This document shows positions 27,856 through 39,998 of a DNA stretch of 42,713 nt, piece by piece. A program made the position numbers and the translations under genes. Location of the stretch: contig JAHECW010000006.1 of the NCBI GenBank assembly GCA_024641545.1, positions 23,142 to 65,854 on the forward strand, given 5' to 3'. Under the pieces are notes generated by a model, which saw nothing but the letters and a program-made list of their open reading frames with translations, did no database searches and had not been told where the DNA came from. Numbering within the stretch: position 1 is the stretch's first letter; every line of letters starts with the position of its first letter. The DNA is from Acidobacteriota bacterium. Lineage in GTDB: Bacteria > Acidobacteriota > Thermoanaerobaculia > Thermoanaerobaculales > Sulfomarinibacteraceae.

Positions 27856-27912
27856 TCCCGTTCGTTCAATCCGTCGAGCGCAATAACGAGCGACGCTCCA
27901 CCTTCCCCCTGC

Positions 27913-27918
27913 TATCCT
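27913..27918 (+). promoter_or_regulatory. Candidate -10 (TATCCT) 6 nt before the GTG of CDS 27925
   Basis: TATCCT-N6-GTG, no Shine-Dalgarno. Confidence 0.4.
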
Positions 27919-27924
27919 GACGGG

Positions 27925-30099
27925 GTGCGGGAAACCGACCTCTTTGAGACGTTTGCCGGCCGCGGCCTGTATGGTGAAATCGCCCGCTTTCACCGCCCCG
28001 ACGATGTCGTCGCCGAGATCGAAAGGCTGATCGACCCCGCATCCGCAACGGCCACCATCCACTGGGGTCGCAACTACCTTTACACGGCCGACATGACGAC
28101 ACCGGACGGCGTCGTTCCGGTGGTGGTCAAACAGTTCCGCAACCAGGGCTGGCGGAAGAAGCTCGAGCGCCGTTTCCGCGGCAGCAAGGCGACCCGCAGC
28201 TGGCGGGTGGCGAAGGAGCTGCTGCGGACCGGGATCGAGACCCCGGAGCCCATCGCCCTCGTCGAGTCCGACCGCCTCGACGGCCCCTCGTTCTTCATCG
28301 CCCGCCTGCTCGAGAGCCCGTGCGAGGTCCGCCAGTTCTTCCGCCGTCTCAACCACGAACCCGACCCGGGGCGGTTTCCCGACGTCGAGCCGCTCGCCTT
28401 TCTCGAGCAGCTCGGGCGCCACGCGCGCAGCCTCCACGACGCCGGCATTGTCTACCGCGATCTTTCGATGGGCAATGTTCTTGCGATCTCCGACGGTCCG
28501 GAGCCCGTGCTCTCGGTCGTCGATTTCAACCGCGCCCGGATCCACCAGCAACCCGGGGTCTACCGCCGGACCCGCGACATCTGCCGCCAGCCCGTGGTCG
28601 AGCCCGAACACCGGGCCGCATTCCTCAAGGGTTACTGGGGAAAGGTGCCGTCCCGCCGGTCACTCAAGTGGCGGCTCTTCGGCCTCAGCGTCGATGCGTA
28701 CATCACCAAGCACGTGGTCAAGAGGTGGTTGCGGAGCCACAGGCTGCGCCGCCAACACGCTCACCGGGACGGCCACCACGACCACATCCCGCCGGCCCCC
28801 GAGCGCGCCGGGAAGCGTGACCTCGCGGTCTGGGACCATCTCTCGGATCAGCCCCACCAACACGCCGGCCGCTGGTCCAAGCTTGGAATCCGGTTGATGG
28901 ACAGTCCGCATCACGCCGCCGATTTCGCCGTGGTGGCCGCGTCGACGCCGAGGATCTGGACCCGCTTTCGAAAGCTGCAACGCGAGCTCCACGCCGATCC
29001 TGTGGTCATCGACGGCATCGGGATCTGTCTGCGCCCGTGGGACGACAACCCCGAAGCACACCTCAGCGCGGTCGAGGCGCTGGGATTGAAGAAGATCCTC
29101 ATCCGTCTCCACCCGTGGCAGACAAACCACGACACCGAGGAGGCTCTTGCGGCGGAGCTTCACAGCCGGGGCTACGACCTCACGTTCGCCCTGCCGCAGA
29201 TCCGCGACCTGGTCACCGATCTGCCGCGCTGGCGCGCTGCGGTCGAGGAGCTCGGCGCGCGCTTCGCACCTTACGGAACCCGCTTCCAGATCGGCCAGGC
29301 CGTCAACCGCAGCAAGTGGGGGATCTGGAGTCGAAACGAGTACGTCCGCCTCTTCCGGACCGCGGCCGAGGTCCTGCGCCGGATCGACGGCATCGAACTG
29401 CTCGGTCCGGCGGTCATCGACTTCGAGTTCCAGATCACCGCCGCCGTCGCCAACCACCGGGCCGAGGGCCTCGACTTCGATATCCTGGCAAGCCTGCTCT
29501 ATGTCGACCGCCGCGGGGCTCCGGAAAACCGCCAGCTCGGTTTTAATACCATCGACAAGGTCCTGTTGCTCAAGGCCATCGCCGAGACCTCCCGCAATAC
29601 GACGAGCCGGAGCTGGATCACCGAGGTCAACTGGCCGTTGGCCGAGGGCCCGCACTCGCCGGCGGGCAAGACCGTCGCCGTCAGCGAGGAGGCCCAGGCC
29701 GACTACCTGGTCCGCTACTACCTCGAGACCCTGGCCAGCGGCGCCGTCGAACGGGTCTATTGGTGGCGGATGGTCGCCCGGGGCTATGGCCTCATCGCCC
29801 CGGAACCGGACGGCTCCCTGCACCGCCGTCCGTCGTGGCACGCGCTGAAGACCCTCAACGACGAGCTCGACGGCGCGACCTTCACCGGCTGTCTTCCGTC
29901 GCCGGAGGACACCTTCCTCTACCGGTTCGCGCGCAAGGGCGAGACCGTGGTCGTCGCCTGGAGCCTCCGGGCGGGCGGCGCCGCCGATCTGCCCGGACCC
30001 GTCCGGCGGGCCGTCACCCGAGACGGCGCCGAGATCAAGCCGCCGAAGGGCACCGCGGTCACCACCACACCCTCCCCGGTCTACTACCTCCTCGGGTAG
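27925..30099 (+). CDS. Fusion: WaaP/InaA-like lipopolysaccharide kinase domain plus glycosidase-like (TIM-barrel, GH clan A-like) C-terminal region
   Basis: 724 aa. N-term VPVVVKQF, GIVYRDLSMGNVLA, VVDFNRARI. C-term DGIGICLRPW, FQIGQAVNRSKWGIW, LLGPAVIDFEF, SWITEVNWPL. Confidence 0.8.
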   Translation: MRETDLFETFAGRGLYGEIARFHRPDDVVAEIERLIDPASATATIHWGRNYLYTADMTTPDGVVPVVVKQFRNQGWRKKLERRFRGSKATRSWRVAKELLRTGIETPEPIALVESDRLDGPSFFIARLLESPCEVRQFFRRLNHEPDPGRFPDVEPLAFLEQLGRHARSLHDAGIVYRDLSMGNVLAISDGPEPVLSVVDFNRARIHQQPGVYRRTRDICRQPVVEPEHRAAFLKGYWGKVPSRRSLKWRLFGLSVDAYITKHVVKRWLRSHRLRRQHAHRDGHHDHIPPAPERAGKRDLAVWDHLSDQPHQHAGRWSKLGIRLMDSPHHAADFAVVAASTPRIWTRFRKLQRELHADPVVIDGIGICLRPWDDNPEAHLSAVEALGLKKILIRLHPWQTNHDTEEALAAELHSRGYDLTFALPQIRDLVTDLPRWRAAVEELGARFAPYGTRFQIGQAVNRSKWGIWSRNEYVRLFRTAAEVLRRIDGIELLGPAVIDFEFQITAAVANHRAEGLDFDILASLLYVDRRGAPENRQLGFNTIDKVLLLKAIAETSRNTTSRSWITEVNWPLAEGPHSPAGKTVAVSEEAQADYLVRYYLETLASGAVERVYWWRMVARGYGLIAPEPDGSLHRRPSWHALKTLNDELDGATFTGCLPSPEDTFLYRFARKGETVVVAWSLRAGGAADLPGPVRRAVTRDGAEIKPPKGTAVTTTPSPVYYLLG

Positions 30100-30257: not shown

Positions 30258-31865
30258 TCAGGGCGCCACCCGTCCTCTCGGTCGCCGCGGCGCGGGCGAC
30301 ACCATCGGCTCCCACGTGAAGCTGATTTCCTCGACGACCGGCGATGCTGCCTCGCTCGTCGACTCGAGGAGAATGCGGTACTGCAGATAGCGGGTGCCGC
30401 GGGGCAGTCCCGAGCAACCCGCTCCAGACACCACGGGCAACCACGTCCCCATCCGGTCCGGGTCGCGCGACGCACGCGCCTCCACCGTCATCGCCGTCGA
30501 ACCCGGCATGACAACCCGCCAGTCACAGCCGACCCAGTCCACGGGCCCGCCGCAGTCGAGGATCGACGACGTCAGCGACCCGTGTTCCGCAAAATCCCCG
30601 ACCCGCCACCAGGCGAGCGCACCGAGATCCCACGATGAGCCCAGCACGTCCTGACTCCCGTTGCCGTCAACGTCGGCCACGTGCACCGAGCTCGACTGGT
30701 CGAAGCCGAGGTCGATATTTCGAAATTCCCAGGCCGCACCCCGTCCGTCGAGGTTCTCGAACCAGGCCATGCGCCCGGACCCGTCCCACCCGGCGCCCGC
30801 GACGTCGAGATCGCCGTCGCCGTCGAGATCGCCCGCCACGGCCGAGACCGCGCCGGAGAGCGAGGTGGTGATCACGGTTTTCCGCCACGACGTCTGACCC
30901 GCCCCGTCGTTGCGCCACCAGGCGACCTGGCGAAGATCCATGGCCGCGCCGATGACGTCGATCCAACCGTCGTCGTCGACATCGGCGGCGTGAACCCAGT
31001 GGGCTCCGACGAAACCCTCGCCGATGATTTCGCCGGTCCACTCGATGGGATCGCCGCCGTCGTTGCGCCACCAGGCGACCTGCCGGCCGTGCCACGCCAC
31101 CCCGAAGACATCGAGATCGCCGTCGAGGTCGACATCGGCGACGGCCACCTTGGTCGGGTAGTCGAAGCCGGAGGCGACGACGAGCTTCTGCCAGGCGGTT
31201 CCGGCGCCGCCGTCGTTGCGCCACCAGAGGATCTCGTCGTTTACGAACGACACCCCGATCACGTCCGTGTCGCCGTCGCCGTCGAGATCGGCGGCGGCGA
31301 GGTCGTGTGCGCCGGGAACGTCGTCGTCGATGGAAAACCGCGACCACCCGGGCGGGCTGCCGCCGAGATTGCGCCACCACGCCACCTCGGCGCCGGCGGC
31401 GCTGCCGCCGAGAATATCGGGTAGCCCGTCGCCGTCGAGATCCGCCACCGACACCGCCAGCGCCTCGTCAAACCCACCGTCGATGACCTGACGCTCCCAC
31501 GAGGGGGGAGAACCGCCGTCGTTGATGAAGGCGATGAGTTGGTCGCCGTGGTAGGCGTTGCCGAGCACGTCCGTGTCTCCGTCGAGATCGATGTCGGCGG
31601 CGTAGACCTTGATCGCGCCCTCCGCTTCACCCGGAAGGGCGGCGCGAGTCGGATTCGCCACCGGCGAGGTCGCCAGGGCGATCTGACCGGGGATCGCGCG
31701 CCAGGCGGCGGCGTCGGTGGAATCGAATCCCGCACCCCACTCGATCACGGGTCCTTCGAGCCCCGGCCCGCCCGACCAGTCGCTCTGGGTCGCCGTCACT
31801 TCAGTCGCGGCCGCCGCTGGAGCAAGACCGGCAATGATCACCAGCGAAAGAAGTCGACCCTTCAT
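30258..31865 (-). CDS. Secreted FG-GAP/VCBS-repeat protein, probable seven-bladed beta-propeller
   Basis: Signal peptide MKGRLLSLVIIAGLAPAAAA; seven about 51-aa repeats with DxDxDG motif and WWRNDGG. Confidence 0.87.
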   Translation of the reverse strand: MKGRLLSLVIIAGLAPAAAATEVTATQSDWSGGPGLEGPVIEWGAGFDSTDAAAWRAIPGQIALATSPVANPTRAALPGEAEGAIKVYAADIDLDGDTDVLGNAYHGDQLIAFINDGGSPPSWERQVIDGGFDEALAVSVADLDGDGLPDILGGSAAGAEVAWWRNLGGSPPGWSRFSIDDDVPGAHDLAAADLDGDGDTDVIGVSFVNDEILWWRNDGGAGTAWQKLVVASGFDYPTKVAVADVDLDGDLDVFGVAWHGRQVAWWRNDGGDPIEWTGEIIGEGFVGAHWVHAADVDDDGWIDVIGAAMDLRQVAWWRNDGAGQTSWRKTVITTSLSGAVSAVAGDLDGDGDLDVAGAGWDGSGRMAWFENLDGRGAAWEFRNIDLGFDQSSSVHVADVDGNGSQDVLGSSWDLGALAWWRVGDFAEHGSLTSSILDCGGPVDWVGCDWRVVMPGSTAMTVEARASRDPDRMGTWLPVVSGAGCSGLPRGTRYLQYRILLESTSEAASPVVEEISFTWEPMVSPAPRRPRGRVAP

Positions 31866-32239
31866 CTCTGCCTCCGATCGGGCGGATCGAGTCCGCCCGC
31901 CGCGATTCGGGCTCGGCAACGACTGTGGCGGCATTGTCGGTCGTTCGCGAAGACATTGCTCAGAAACGCCGCGACTTTTGCAAGGTTTGACGTCGTCGGC
32001 CGTGGTCCCACACGACCGAGGCCGCGCTTCGGAAGGCATCGGTAAGGCGCGTGCCGAGCCTCCGGCGGGTTGGCACCTCCAACTCGTGCAGAGAGGAGAT
32101 TGATCATGGGATCAGCAGGTGATCTGACCCGCGGCGGTTTCAAGTCGAAGCCCTCGATCCGGGACGCGGAGTTCGCAAACCCGGCCCGCTTGACGAATTC
32201 TCAGGTCCTGCCAGGATGCTCACTGGACGGAGCATCGAA

Positions 32240-35007: not shown

Positions 35008-35985
35008 TCAGGGAGCGCCGACCACCATCGGGTTGGCGGGGTCCGCCGCCCACTCCTGGAGCGAGGCGGTGTAGACAGCGACATCGGTGTAGCCGAGACG
35101 GGTCATGACGAAGGCGGTCGACGAGGCCGCGATCCCCCCGCCGCAGTAGGTGATGGCACGGGCCTCGCGGTCGTCGCCGAAGAGCGCCGCGAGCTCTTCG
35201 TTCGGCTTGTAGCGGCCGTTTTCGTCGAGCAGCGCCGTGACGGGGACATTCTCTGCGCTGGGGATGTGGCCGAGCCGGCCATACATGGTCATCTCGCCCC
35301 GGAAATGGGGTTCGGGCATGGCGTCGATGATCGCAACCGCGTCGTCGTCGATGGCGGCGAAGACCTCGTCCCGGTCGGCGATCAACTCCGGTCGGGGTGC
35401 CGGCGTGAGCGTTCTCACCGGTTCGCCGGCCGGATCGGTTGACAGCGCTCGGCCCTCGGCCGTCCAGGCCCCCAGGCCGCCGTCGAGCACCGCCGCCCGG
35501 TCGAACCCGGCCCAGCGCAGCATCCACCAGACCCGCGCCGCCCAGGCCGACATGCTCGCGTCATAGAGCACCACGCGGGTATCGTCACCGACGCCGAGTG
35601 CGCCCATGACGGCGGCGAACCTCTCCGGTGTCGGCAGCGCATATTCGTACGGGCTGTCGCCGTCGGCGAGATCGCCCATCAGATCCGCAAACCCGGCGGT
35701 CGGGATGTGACCGGCCTCATAGCCGGCCCGACCGCTCTTGATCGCGAGGCCGCCGTCCTCGCCCCGCTCCACGCTGACGGTGCAGTCGAGCACCACCAGA
35801 TCGGGGTCGTCCAGGTGCTCGCTCAGCCATTGCGCCGTCACCAGCGTGTCCATCGGCGGCGCCGGCTGGACGGCTTCCCGGGTTGTCGTGACGTCGGGCG
35901 GCGACTGGGGGCCGGCGCAGCCGATCGTCACCGCCACGAACGCGATCAGAAGAACGACGTTCCGCGAACACTGATGGAAACCCAT
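35008..35985 (-). CDS. Lipoprotein thiosulfate sulfurtransferase/rhodanese, two domains
   Basis: MGFHQCSRNVVLLIAFVAVTIGCAGP lipobox; VVLDCTVS, GHIPTAGFADL, GHIPSAENVP, ITYCGGGIAAS active-site loop; GGGAGGA before ATG. Confidence 0.88.
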   Translation of the reverse strand: MGFHQCSRNVVLLIAFVAVTIGCAGPQSPPDVTTTREAVQPAPPMDTLVTAQWLSEHLDDPDLVVLDCTVSVERGEDGGLAIKSGRAGYEAGHIPTAGFADLMGDLADGDSPYEYALPTPERFAAVMGALGVGDDTRVVLYDASMSAWAARVWWMLRWAGFDRAAVLDGGLGAWTAEGRALSTDPAGEPVRTLTPAPRPELIADRDEVFAAIDDDAVAIIDAMPEPHFRGEMTMYGRLGHIPSAENVPVTALLDENGRYKPNEELAALFGDDREARAITYCGGGIAASSTAFVMTRLGYTDVAVYTASLQEWAADPANPMVVGAP

Positions 35986-36393
35986 GATTCCTCCCGGTCT
36001 GATGTGAATACGCACTCCAGGCCTTCCAGGTTACCCGATCCGGGTCGGCTCGAAGACCGGTGGCCCGTGTCGTCTTGTCGAACGGAACATCGTTCGAGAC
36101 GTCCCGATTCAATACACAGAATTCAACACGAGGTTGAGAAGATTGTTTTATTAATGGCATCGGCATTGCATAAAGCATCTGTCGATGTCGGATCTCGACA
36201 GCAACGGACCTCGATGGCGGATCGCGTTCGGATTTGCCGGGGGTGCTGCGAGGGTCGGCGAAAGCGCGGGTGCCGCCGACCACGACCCGTCGTCGAGCGT
36301 GCCATCGAGGTCACGGTTGTGCGGCCGGCGCCGGCTGTATCGACCACGGGGGAACCCGGAAACCGGCAGACGCGGATGACAAGGGAGTGGATC

Positions 36394-38220
36394 ATGAGGC
36401 TTTTTCCGATTTCGTTCTTGATTTCAGCGGTTCTCGTTGCTGTGTGCGCCGCACCGGACACGGTGTTTTCCGGCGACGGGTACTGGAGCCCGGCTCCCGG
36501 CATCAGTGACGTGAACGAGTTCGCCGTCTGCGGCACCACCGTGTATGCGGCCACCGAAAACGGCCTCTACCGATCATTCGGTGATCCCGAGGCCTGGACC
36601 CGGTTGCGGACCAATTACACCAGCCAGGTCGCCTGCGAGGGTTCCAAGGTCATCTGGGTGGAGATCATCGGGATCGTCGACACGGTCTTCCTGTCGCACG
36701 ACAACCTGCAGACGGTTGCGGCTGTCAACGGCCTCGACGGGGCGGCCGGAACCGGAATTCGCGATCTGGCGATCGCCGGCGATCTTGCCCTGGCGACCAC
36801 GCTGTGGGGTGTCTACCGGTCCACGGACGGGGGTTTCAACTTCCCGTCGGCCTATCCGGTGTTGTGGGAATCCAGCGGCGAGTACCAGTTGACCGCTGTG
36901 TGGACCAACGGCGCCGACTGCGTGGCGGCGGGATCGGGCGGTTCCGCCGGATGGGGGATCTGGCACTCGCCGTCGGGAGACACGGGCACCTGGGTCAACC
37001 TGCTCACCGCCGGCGGGCAGAGCTGGCTCAGCGGCTCAGGCAGCAGCACGATCATCTCCGGCGACAGGTACTCCGGAGCGGGTCCGGTGGGGTATCTCTC
37101 GACCGACGCGGGTCTGAGCTGGACCCAGCTGCCCCTGTCCTGGGGAGCGACCGACGGCTCGTATCAACGCCCGTTCATCTCGGAAACGCGGATTCTGAGC
37201 AAATATGTGCATGAGATCTTCGATCCCGGTACCGGTCAGTTCATCACGGTCACGGACGGACCGTTCCTGTACGATACGGCCACCGGAATCGGCAACGACC
37301 TCGACCCGTCGTTCGCATCGGAGGCGGAGTTCCGAAATCAGGCGATGGTGGAGACGGCGGACCCGCTCATGCTCATCGCCGATCACCAGGGGCCGGTCTA
37401 CTGGTTCCGGGTTCCCGGCGGTTGGCCGCAGTCGGGATTCGACTTCACGCCCCCGTTTTCGCCGAGGCTGAACGCAACGCCCCGCCTGGCGGCGGCGCCT
37501 TCACAGCTCTCGGTCAACCTCTATCCAACCGCCGGAGACGCCACCTGGATGTATCTCATTGAGGTGTTCGACTCGCTGCAGCTGGCGATCGATCCCGGCA
37601 CCGGCTTTCTCACCGGGTCGTTGACGACGCAGGTCGGGCCGAGCACCAACGGCTGGACGGCTTATTCAACCAGCCTCGCCTGGGACCTCTACCCGGGCAA
37701 CGGGACCCACACCTTCTACGCGTGGTTTGCCGACGCAGCAGGCAACATGACGGACCCGGCGGTGAGGTCGGGAACGACCACCCTGCCGTCAAACCTCTAT
37801 CTCGACTCGAACGGGTGTTGGGGCGTCTGGCTCTACGCCGAGACGGGAGAAACCTTCACCATCGGCACCTCGAGCTTCACCGGCGACATCGACATCTATC
37901 ACTGGAATCCGCCGGGCAGCGGATACTGTGACGACTGGGCGAACGGCGCTTCCAACGACAGCCTGAGCTTTACGGCGGCGAACACCGGGTACCACCTGAT
38001 TCTTCTCCACAACTACCCCGGCGTCGGTGCGTTCGACGGAACCGTCACGGCGTCGGACACCCTCGAGGCCGCCGGCGGCGGAGCGCACAGCAGGATCAAG
38101 GTGGATCCGATTTCCACCGTCGAACCCCGTGCCGACGATCTGCCGCCGTACGCGGAGTCCCCGGCCGCCAGCCTGATCTTCGGGGACGGGTTCGAGTCGG
38201 GCGATCTTTCAGCCTGGTAG
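36394..38220 (+). CDS. Secreted beta-propeller-like protein with C-terminal GFESGDLSAW motif
   Basis: Signal peptide MRLFPISFLISAVLVAVCAAPDTVFS; repeated GVYRSTDGG/YLSTDAGLSWTQL motifs; ends IFGDGFESGDLSAW; AAGGGAG before ATG. Confidence 0.83.
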   Translation: MRLFPISFLISAVLVAVCAAPDTVFSGDGYWSPAPGISDVNEFAVCGTTVYAATENGLYRSFGDPEAWTRLRTNYTSQVACEGSKVIWVEIIGIVDTVFLSHDNLQTVAAVNGLDGAAGTGIRDLAIAGDLALATTLWGVYRSTDGGFNFPSAYPVLWESSGEYQLTAVWTNGADCVAAGSGGSAGWGIWHSPSGDTGTWVNLLTAGGQSWLSGSGSSTIISGDRYSGAGPVGYLSTDAGLSWTQLPLSWGATDGSYQRPFISETRILSKYVHEIFDPGTGQFITVTDGPFLYDTATGIGNDLDPSFASEAEFRNQAMVETADPLMLIADHQGPVYWFRVPGGWPQSGFDFTPPFSPRLNATPRLAAAPSQLSVNLYPTAGDATWMYLIEVFDSLQLAIDPGTGFLTGSLTTQVGPSTNGWTAYSTSLAWDLYPGNGTHTFYAWFADAAGNMTDPAVRSGTTTLPSNLYLDSNGCWGVWLYAETGETFTIGTSSFTGDIDIYHWNPPGSGYCDDWANGASNDSLSFTAANTGYHLILLHNYPGVGAFDGTVTASDTLEAAGGGAHSRIKVDPISTVEPRADDLPPYAESPAASLIFGDGFESGDLSAW

Positions 38221-38426: not shown

Positions 38427-39998
38427 TCAGTTCCAGTGTTTGAGCCGGGGCCAGAGCTCGGCGAGAGGCATTTTCAACCCGCGGCAGACGAGGATCGGGT
38501 GGTTCTCCTCGGCCATGCCCCACGGGTGGAAGTGGTTTCCCGCCTCCTCGACCGATTCGAAGACCTCGGCGAGGTCGTCGGCGTCGACCTGGAGCACGAT
38601 CACCACCTCGCCGGTGCAACCGCCGGGACCCCACATGGAGTGGGTCTGGTGGCCGCTGATCGCCGCCGGCAACCCATATTGCGATCCGAAGAGGTTGACC
38701 GCCCCGGCCTCGCCGTAGTTGCCGGTGAAGACGCAGGCTGCGGCGCGCTCGTCTTCCGGGAGGGCCCGGTAGATCGTTGCGACATCGGCCACCAGCTCCT
38801 CCCAGCCGAACTGGTCGCCGAAGATCTGCGGCAGCGGCCCGACGTGGTTGACCTCGGTCTTTCCCGGGGCAATGCCGAGGCGCTCCTGGTAGGCGACCAG
38901 ATCTGCCGGCGCCAATAGCGGGAGGACCAGCGGCGCCGCCACCGCGCCGAAGACGACGACCACCGCGAGCACGGCGCCGCGCAGCACCAGTCTTGCCCGC
39001 GCCCGGGAGAGCGCGTTGATCGCACCCTCGAACGCGACCCCGCCCGCCGCCAGCGCGAGCGGGTAGATCGGCGCGAGGTAGTACGACTTTCCCTTGAGGA
39101 CGAGCAGGGTGGCGAACAGCACCGCGAAGATCCAACCGATCACCCGAAATCGACGTCCGCGCCCGACAAACAGGAACCACAGCCCGGCAAGCCACACCGG
39201 CAGCAGCACGGGGTGGACGATGAAGATCTGTTCGGCGACGAACGCGACCGGGGCGAGCTCGACGTTCTTGCCGGTCTCCTTGACGGTGTGCAGGTCCTCG
39301 AGGGTCGGAAAGCCGTTTTGGAATTGCCAGACGATATTGGGCAGGAAGAGCAGCAGCGCCACCCCGGCGCCGAGCCAGATCCAGCGGCGGCCGAGCTCGC
39401 GCCGCAACGGCGTGAGGACCACGGCGAGGGCGGTGGCGAAGCCGAAGAACAGCATCGAGTGTTTGTTCTCGAGCCCGATCCCGGCGAGAGCGCCGAAGAG
39501 GAGCCACCAGCGGGAGTCGCCGGATCTGATGATGTGGACGACCACCAGGGCGCACCCGGTCCAGATCAGCGGTTCGAACACATTCATCGAGAAGAGGCTC
39601 GACACGGCGAGGTTGATCGGGGCGACGATGACGGCGATCCCGGCGAGTGCCTGGGCGAACCGGCCGCCGCCGAGCCGCTGGGCGAGCACCATCGTCAGGG
39701 CGACGAGGGCTGCGCCGGCGACCGCGGAGACCAACCGGAGCAGCTCCAGCGAACCCCCGAGATCGAGCACCACGCGCGCGACCCAGGCAATGAGAGGAGC
39801 GAGGTCGACGTAGCCCCACGCGAGATGCCGCCCGCAGTCGAGGAAGTAGAGCTCATCGCGGAAGTAGCCGTATCTTCCGAGCAGCGGCAGGTGGATGGCG
39901 AGCTTGACCGCCACCAGCGCCAGCAGCGTACCCCGGGCCAGGGGCTGCAAAGGGGGGATTTCCACCGGACCTTCTCGATCGGCTTTCTTTGTGTCCAT
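38427..39998 (-). CDS. GT39/ArnT-like glycosyltransferase, integral membrane
   Basis: 523 aa; GYFRDELYFLDCGRHLAWGYVDLAPLIAWVARV, many TM helices, KGKSYYLAPIYPLALAAGGV. Confidence 0.88.
   Translation of the reverse strand: MDTKKADREGPVEIPPLQPLARGTLLALVAVKLAIHLPLLGRYGYFRDELYFLDCGRHLAWGYVDLAPLIAWVARVVLDLGGSLELLRLVSAVAGAALVALTMVLAQRLGGGRFAQALAGIAVIVAPINLAVSSLFSMNVFEPLIWTGCALVVVHIIRSGDSRWWLLFGALAGIGLENKHSMLFFGFATALAVVLTPLRRELGRRWIWLGAGVALLLFLPNIVWQFQNGFPTLEDLHTVKETGKNVELAPVAFVAEQIFIVHPVLLPVWLAGLWFLFVGRGRRFRVIGWIFAVLFATLLVLKGKSYYLAPIYPLALAAGGVAFEGAINALSRARARLVLRGAVLAVVVVFGAVAAPLVLPLLAPADLVAYQERLGIAPGKTEVNHVGPLPQIFGDQFGWEELVADVATIYRALPEDERAAACVFTGNYGEAGAVNLFGSQYGLPAAISGHQTHSMWGPGGCTGEVVIVLQVDADDLAEVFESVEEAGNHFHPWGMAEENHPILVCRGLKMPLAELWPRLKHWN

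Follow-up and report, generated by a model that had tools for sequence, protein, structure and literature searches.

Within a 42,713-nucleotide stretch of DNA from an Acidobacteriota bacterium, analysed as a whole and hereafter called the window, we identified a gene that encodes a kinase of the Kdo/WaaP type joined to a GH39-like barrel, a two-domain arrangement that is widely conserved and that we have not found described. Kinase and barrel probably constitute one unnamed LPS-building enzyme, because at least six bacterial phyla carry the two domains side by side, in one chain or in adjacent genes, often with lipid A/LPS genes nearby. Our preferred reading, to which we assign a probability of about 45%, is a cytoplasmic two-domain enzyme of the LPS inner core, in which the kinase would phosphorylate and a catalytic barrel would cleave or transfer sugar, both acting on the same nascent molecule.

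The fusion gene and its kinase domain

The gene occupies positions 27925 to 30099 of the window on the forward strand. In line with the sequence-only reading, which had described a continuous frame of 724 residues, the 724 codons and the stop codon (30097-30099) form one unbroken frame that begins with GTG. Full-length orthologues share 42-79% identity with the protein; the nearest named relative, at 79%, is a Thermoanaerobaculales MAG, and the close relatives are mostly named Thermoanaerobaculia or Holophagae. The third-position GC content stays within 0.87-0.90 from the kinase through the linker to the barrel. This uniformity, the full-length orthologues and a Pfam match of the kinase half above its cut-off argue that the fusion protein is real and not a product of chance. 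A search of plasmid and phage collections yielded no match, and a sequence search of the PDB with the whole protein returned weak kinase matches only. Since the protein contains no strongly hydrophobic segment, it is probably cytoplasmic.

The GTG start lies 70 bases past the end of a pilT-like gene, and the neighbours in the window, namely trpS, a Ser/Thr kinase gene, lepA, hemW, pilT and tex, are housekeeping genes that are silent on LPS. Directly 5′ of the GTG, at positions 27911-27919, the window reads TGCTATCCT, and the 79% identical locus L062 carries TGCTATTCT at the same spot; the element resembles an extended -10, and the transcript could be leaderless. On the opposite strand a gene for an FG-GAP repeat protein (30258-32039, reverse strand) adjoins the fusion gene. 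Further along, the window contains an 837-residue open frame (35707-38220, forward strand) that has no Pfam match and a weak NCBIfam match to the F510_1955 family glycosylhydrolase (23.5 of 175 bits), as well as a gene for a membrane glycosyltransferase of the PMT_2 type (38427-39998, reverse strand).

The kinase domain comprises residues 1-275 (27925-28749, forward strand), and the full-length model shows a kinase fold there. Its match to PF06293 (Kdo/WaaP) at residues 77-208 scores 29.7 bits against a curated gathering cut-off of 21.3, and thus the domain is, as judged from its sequence, a member of a known family. Moreover, Lys69 in VVVKQF (28129-28131), Asp179 (28459-28461) and Asn184 of the catalytic loop YRDLSMGNVL, and the metal-binding Asp200 of DFN (28522-28524) are invariant in 92 aligned kinases, a set that includes the window's own and in which each sequence derives from a locus that also holds a barrel. 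The kinase should therefore be active, and both the family match and the invariant catalytic residues sustain the Kdo/WaaP-type call made initially. The domain accordingly resembles the Kdo/WaaP kinases of PF06293 (KdkA, WaaP/RfaP, InaA-type) in family match and in the Lys, the HRD-type Asp, the Asn and the DxN Asp, and an LPS gene context is likewise seen for kinase/barrel loci in other phyla. In contrast to these kinases, it scores far below the equivalog cut-offs for 3-deoxy-D-manno-octulosonic acid kinase (NF002475; 25.7 of 142 bits) and RfaP (NF011703; 22.6 of 170 bits), and it has a glycosidase-like barrel fused to it or encoded next to it. By fold comparison of the full-length model, the kinase half is near small kinases of the PRPK/Bud32 type; none of the Foldseek matches listed for this model is a solved structure spanning both halves. 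The His/Arg-rich linker noticed earlier is present between the domains at residues 276-296 (28750-28812, forward strand; about 270-297 in a wider delimitation) and coincides with the lowest confidence of the full-length AlphaFold model (block means 59-82).

A glycosidase-type barrel with an altered active site

Residues 297-724 (28813-30096, forward strand) are modelled as a TIM barrel followed by a beta-sandwich. The AlphaFold model, built on an 80-sequence alignment, reaches a mean pLDDT of 95 and a pTM of 0.94, and its best Foldseek match in the PDB is PslG, a GH39 protein (9g17; E 1e-18, TM 0.67/0.70), ahead of GH30 xylanases, GH51 and further glycosidases; model and matches indicate the (b/a)8 fold of clan GH-A. 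Comparison by hhalign with a profile of six GH39 proteins from related genomes gave a probability of 98.6 over 302 columns with an E-value of 1e-15, which refers to this one pairwise comparison and not to a database search; controls with the alignment reversed or its columns shuffled, and a control with the kinase family, all remained below 1%. The assignment to a clan GH-A type of glycosidase, originally made from motifs, is thus upheld by model, Foldseek and profile comparison. The structural check proposed for this half found a glycosidase fold, and a non-glycosidase barrel is ruled out by the Foldseek matches together with the controlled profile comparison.

A scan of Pfam and NCBIfam gave no match for the window's barrel and no convincing match for 79 aligned relatives; PF01229 (GH39) is absent from the matches of the 80 barrel members and has no match in the window's genome. 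Likewise, a PDB sequence search with the barrel profile returned nothing firm (best 5jvk, E 0.013). Despite its nearness in fold and profile, we did not file the barrel as GH39, because both the acid/base residue of the clan and the Pfam model failed to be recovered. On the sequence and model evidence, the barrel belongs to a family without a name in Pfam or NCBIfam that is near GH39.

In the model, the motif IGQAVNR lies at the end of b4, LLGPAVIDFEF forms b5 and SWITEVNWPL forms b7. The hhalign register places Glu567 (29623-29625, forward strand), in WITEVNWP at the end of b7, opposite the GH39 nucleophile, the Glu of TEW, and Ala459 (29299-29301, forward strand), in IGQAVNR, opposite the acid/base Glu of NEP. 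An alignment of barrel homologues demonstrates that the putative nucleophile is conserved, with Glu567 in 113 of 113 sequences at the position where clan GH-A carries it. At position 459, the same sequences have Ala (107) or Gly (6), and none has Glu or Asp; the acid/base Glu that follows an Asn in the clan is hence missing throughout, so that the loss suspected from IGQAVNR turned out to be a property of the whole family. The residue preceding position 459, at the place of the clan Asn, is Gln in 53, His in 49, Asn in 7, Glu in 3 and Ile in one sequence, the Glu occurring in three Campylobacterota sequences. Because this Asn is replaced as well, normal glycosidase chemistry appears doubtful. 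R394, Q425, N461, R462, K464, W465, G466, D499, Y526, R529, K545, N569, W570 and P571 are invariant in the 113 barrels, too, and the several basic residues among them suggest that the ligand would be an acidic or a phosphorylated sugar.

The barrel and PslG/GH39 of clan GH-A have in common the TIM barrel with beta-sandwich, the b7 nucleophile Glu in register and a GPA motif in b5. They differ in that the barrel has Ala or Gly for the acid/base Glu in all members, lacks a Pfam GH39 match, is 18% identical to PslG and comes with a kinase, either in one chain or as a partner gene. A kept nucleophile without acid/base has a precedent in clan GH-A in the GH1 enzyme myrosinase, which manages with a good leaving group; this plant thioglucosidase has Gln at the position of the barrel's Ala/Gly and no link to a kinase or to LPS.

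Distribution and genomic context of the pair

A species-level genome collection yielded 74 barrel loci. The barrel is fused to a kinase at 32 of these and lies adjacent to a kinase gene at 30, while six loci are located at contig ends and six stand alone. At the adjacent loci, the kinase gene is on the same strand, nearly always directly upstream, and often overlaps by a few bases. Linked pairs were found in Acidobacteriota, Aminicenantota, Schekmanbacteria, Verrucomicrobiota, Pseudomonadota and Planctomycetota. The fusions of Thermoanaerobaculia fall into a single clade of 37 rows with a support of 100/98. A Schekmanbacteria locus (L113) encodes the domains in reverse order, with the barrel first and the kinase at residues 538-770, so that this fusion originated separately; one more kinase-barrel fusion (L136) sits on a long branch, and its placement is unsure. 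The survey of homologues thus revealed a fusion that is kept across Thermoanaerobaculia and was separately made in reverse in Schekmanbacteria. The separate genes seen elsewhere are true two-gene arrangements and do not stem from frameshifts or assembly joins. Moreover, no named family was found for the architecture, and a literature search did not find a description of the kinase and barrel pair. At least one carrier, Pelagicoccus mobilis KCTC 13126, is a cultured and named strain, which makes the question testable.

In one family of the window's order (f2), the barrel has no detectable adjoining kinase, and kinase relatives are located on other contigs. These relatives (L035, L038-L041 and L043) are stand-alone proteins of 263 residues, encoded by the same genomes as the barrels but on separate contigs. 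At L104, on a contig labelled Clostridiales, the barrel falls within the Aminicenantes clade and the neighbouring genes are common to Aminicenantes; this contig is probably mis-binned or mislabelled.

The neighbours of the separate-gene loci are informative. In Aminicenantes they comprise an hldE-type heptose kinase, a GT9 heptosyltransferase, an O-antigen-ligase-like Wzy_C protein and a GT4 glycosyltransferase, in Gammaproteobacteria an LpxL-like lipid A acyltransferase and GT4, and in Verrucomicrobia an MsbA-like transporter, the MsbA and LpxL labels denoting the best-scoring named family, yet below equivalog or subfamily cut-off. This context in other phyla points to lipid A/LPS inner-core assembly rather than to a general envelope glycan. 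An arrangement comparable to that of the Verrucomicrobia loci is seen with the LPS-type kinase PA4998, which adjoins msbA in Pseudomonas core-LPS clusters (PMC8005017). No barrel of the window's family is described there, and the sole gene of that cluster to bear the label 'glycoside hydrolase family' has been given the role of a glycosyltransferase, wapH (PMC8005017).

WaaA and LpxC are present in the window's genome, and WaaA was found in 60 and LpxC in 56 of 61 relatives, with or without the barrel. The presence or absence of LPS genes is thus uninformative as a discriminator, and since relatives without the barrel have these genes as well, the barrel step would be accessory. Finally, in a branch from Campylobacterota and Nitrospirota that lacks a kinase, the barrel carries a membrane anchor at its N-terminus. 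At L111, L124, L125 and L128, no kinase was found near the anchored barrel, and each is followed by a gene of one family, which scans as a PMT/ArnT-like glycosyltransferase. Anchor and neighbour suggest a periplasmic variant.

Possible functions of kinase and barrel

In the preferred reading, the N-terminal kinase would phosphorylate a core sugar, Kdo or heptose, of nascent LPS, and the C-terminal barrel would bind the same acidic core by its invariant basic residues. The barrel may then cleave or transfer a sugar unit with Glu567 as nucleophile and without a canonical acid/base, the leaving group either needing little protonation or being protonated by Asp499, Glu501 or Asp528; this order of the kinase and barrel steps is presumed. 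Since the barrel may not cleave at all, a coupling of phosphorylation to cleavage is hypothetical. In fact, the lost acid/base and the kept nucleophile would fit an unusual transglycosidase or hydrolase and a docking module alike. It is quite conceivable, if short of probable, that the barrel, as a glycosidase that has lost its activity, acts as a sugar-recognition module and holds the LPS core in place for the kinase to which it is fused or with which it is paired, given that none of the 113 homologues retains the acid/base Glu and that the physical coupling to an intact kinase is tight. However, Glu567 and about 20 more residues are invariant across phyla, which is beyond the usual demand of binding, and the same residues are kept in the branch without a nearby kinase (L111, L124, L128). 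Because these pocket residues have stayed fixed across phyla, the kinase-less branch included, we lean, only modestly, towards a catalytic barrel.

PslG, which has the closest fold, is described as a glycosyl hydrolase that resides inside the cell and whose activity is important for making Psl (PMC9075953), and the barrel might by analogy be an active endoglycosidase that serves an exopolysaccharide pathway, with another acid/base and a regulatory link to the kinase. We consider this improbable, as PslG has Glu165 and Glu276 as its key residues (PMC9075953), whereas the b4 acid/base is Ala or Gly in the barrel, and as the informative genes nearby are of the lipid A/core kind rather than an exopolysaccharide cluster. 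The window derives from a draft assembly in 310 contigs, in which two unrelated genes could be brought together by an assembly join, a frameshift or chance adjacency; this explanation is refuted by the orthologous fusion in many independent assemblies, forming the single clade mentioned above, by uniform codon use across the junction and by the reverse-order fusion elsewhere, and we give it practically no credence.

Taken together, the preferred two-domain LPS-core enzyme would, in its furthest form, which we advance tentatively and hold to be rather unlikely in full, imply a new GH39-like barrel family that works without acid/base on a phosphorylated or acidic LPS-core substrate and is physically linked with the kinase by which this substrate is made or marked. 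The pair would then be a sugar-kinase/transglycosidase machine of LPS assembly that spans no fewer than six phyla and underwent fusion on two or more occasions, in opposite orders. A glycosidase fold with an invariant nucleophile and never an acid/base offers a direct test case for a change of chemistry in such folds. To our knowledge, the chemistry of the LPS core beyond Proteobacteria is largely unknown, and a two-part enzyme kept across phyla and fused in opposite orders would be a sign of an undescribed LPS-core step in these bacteria.
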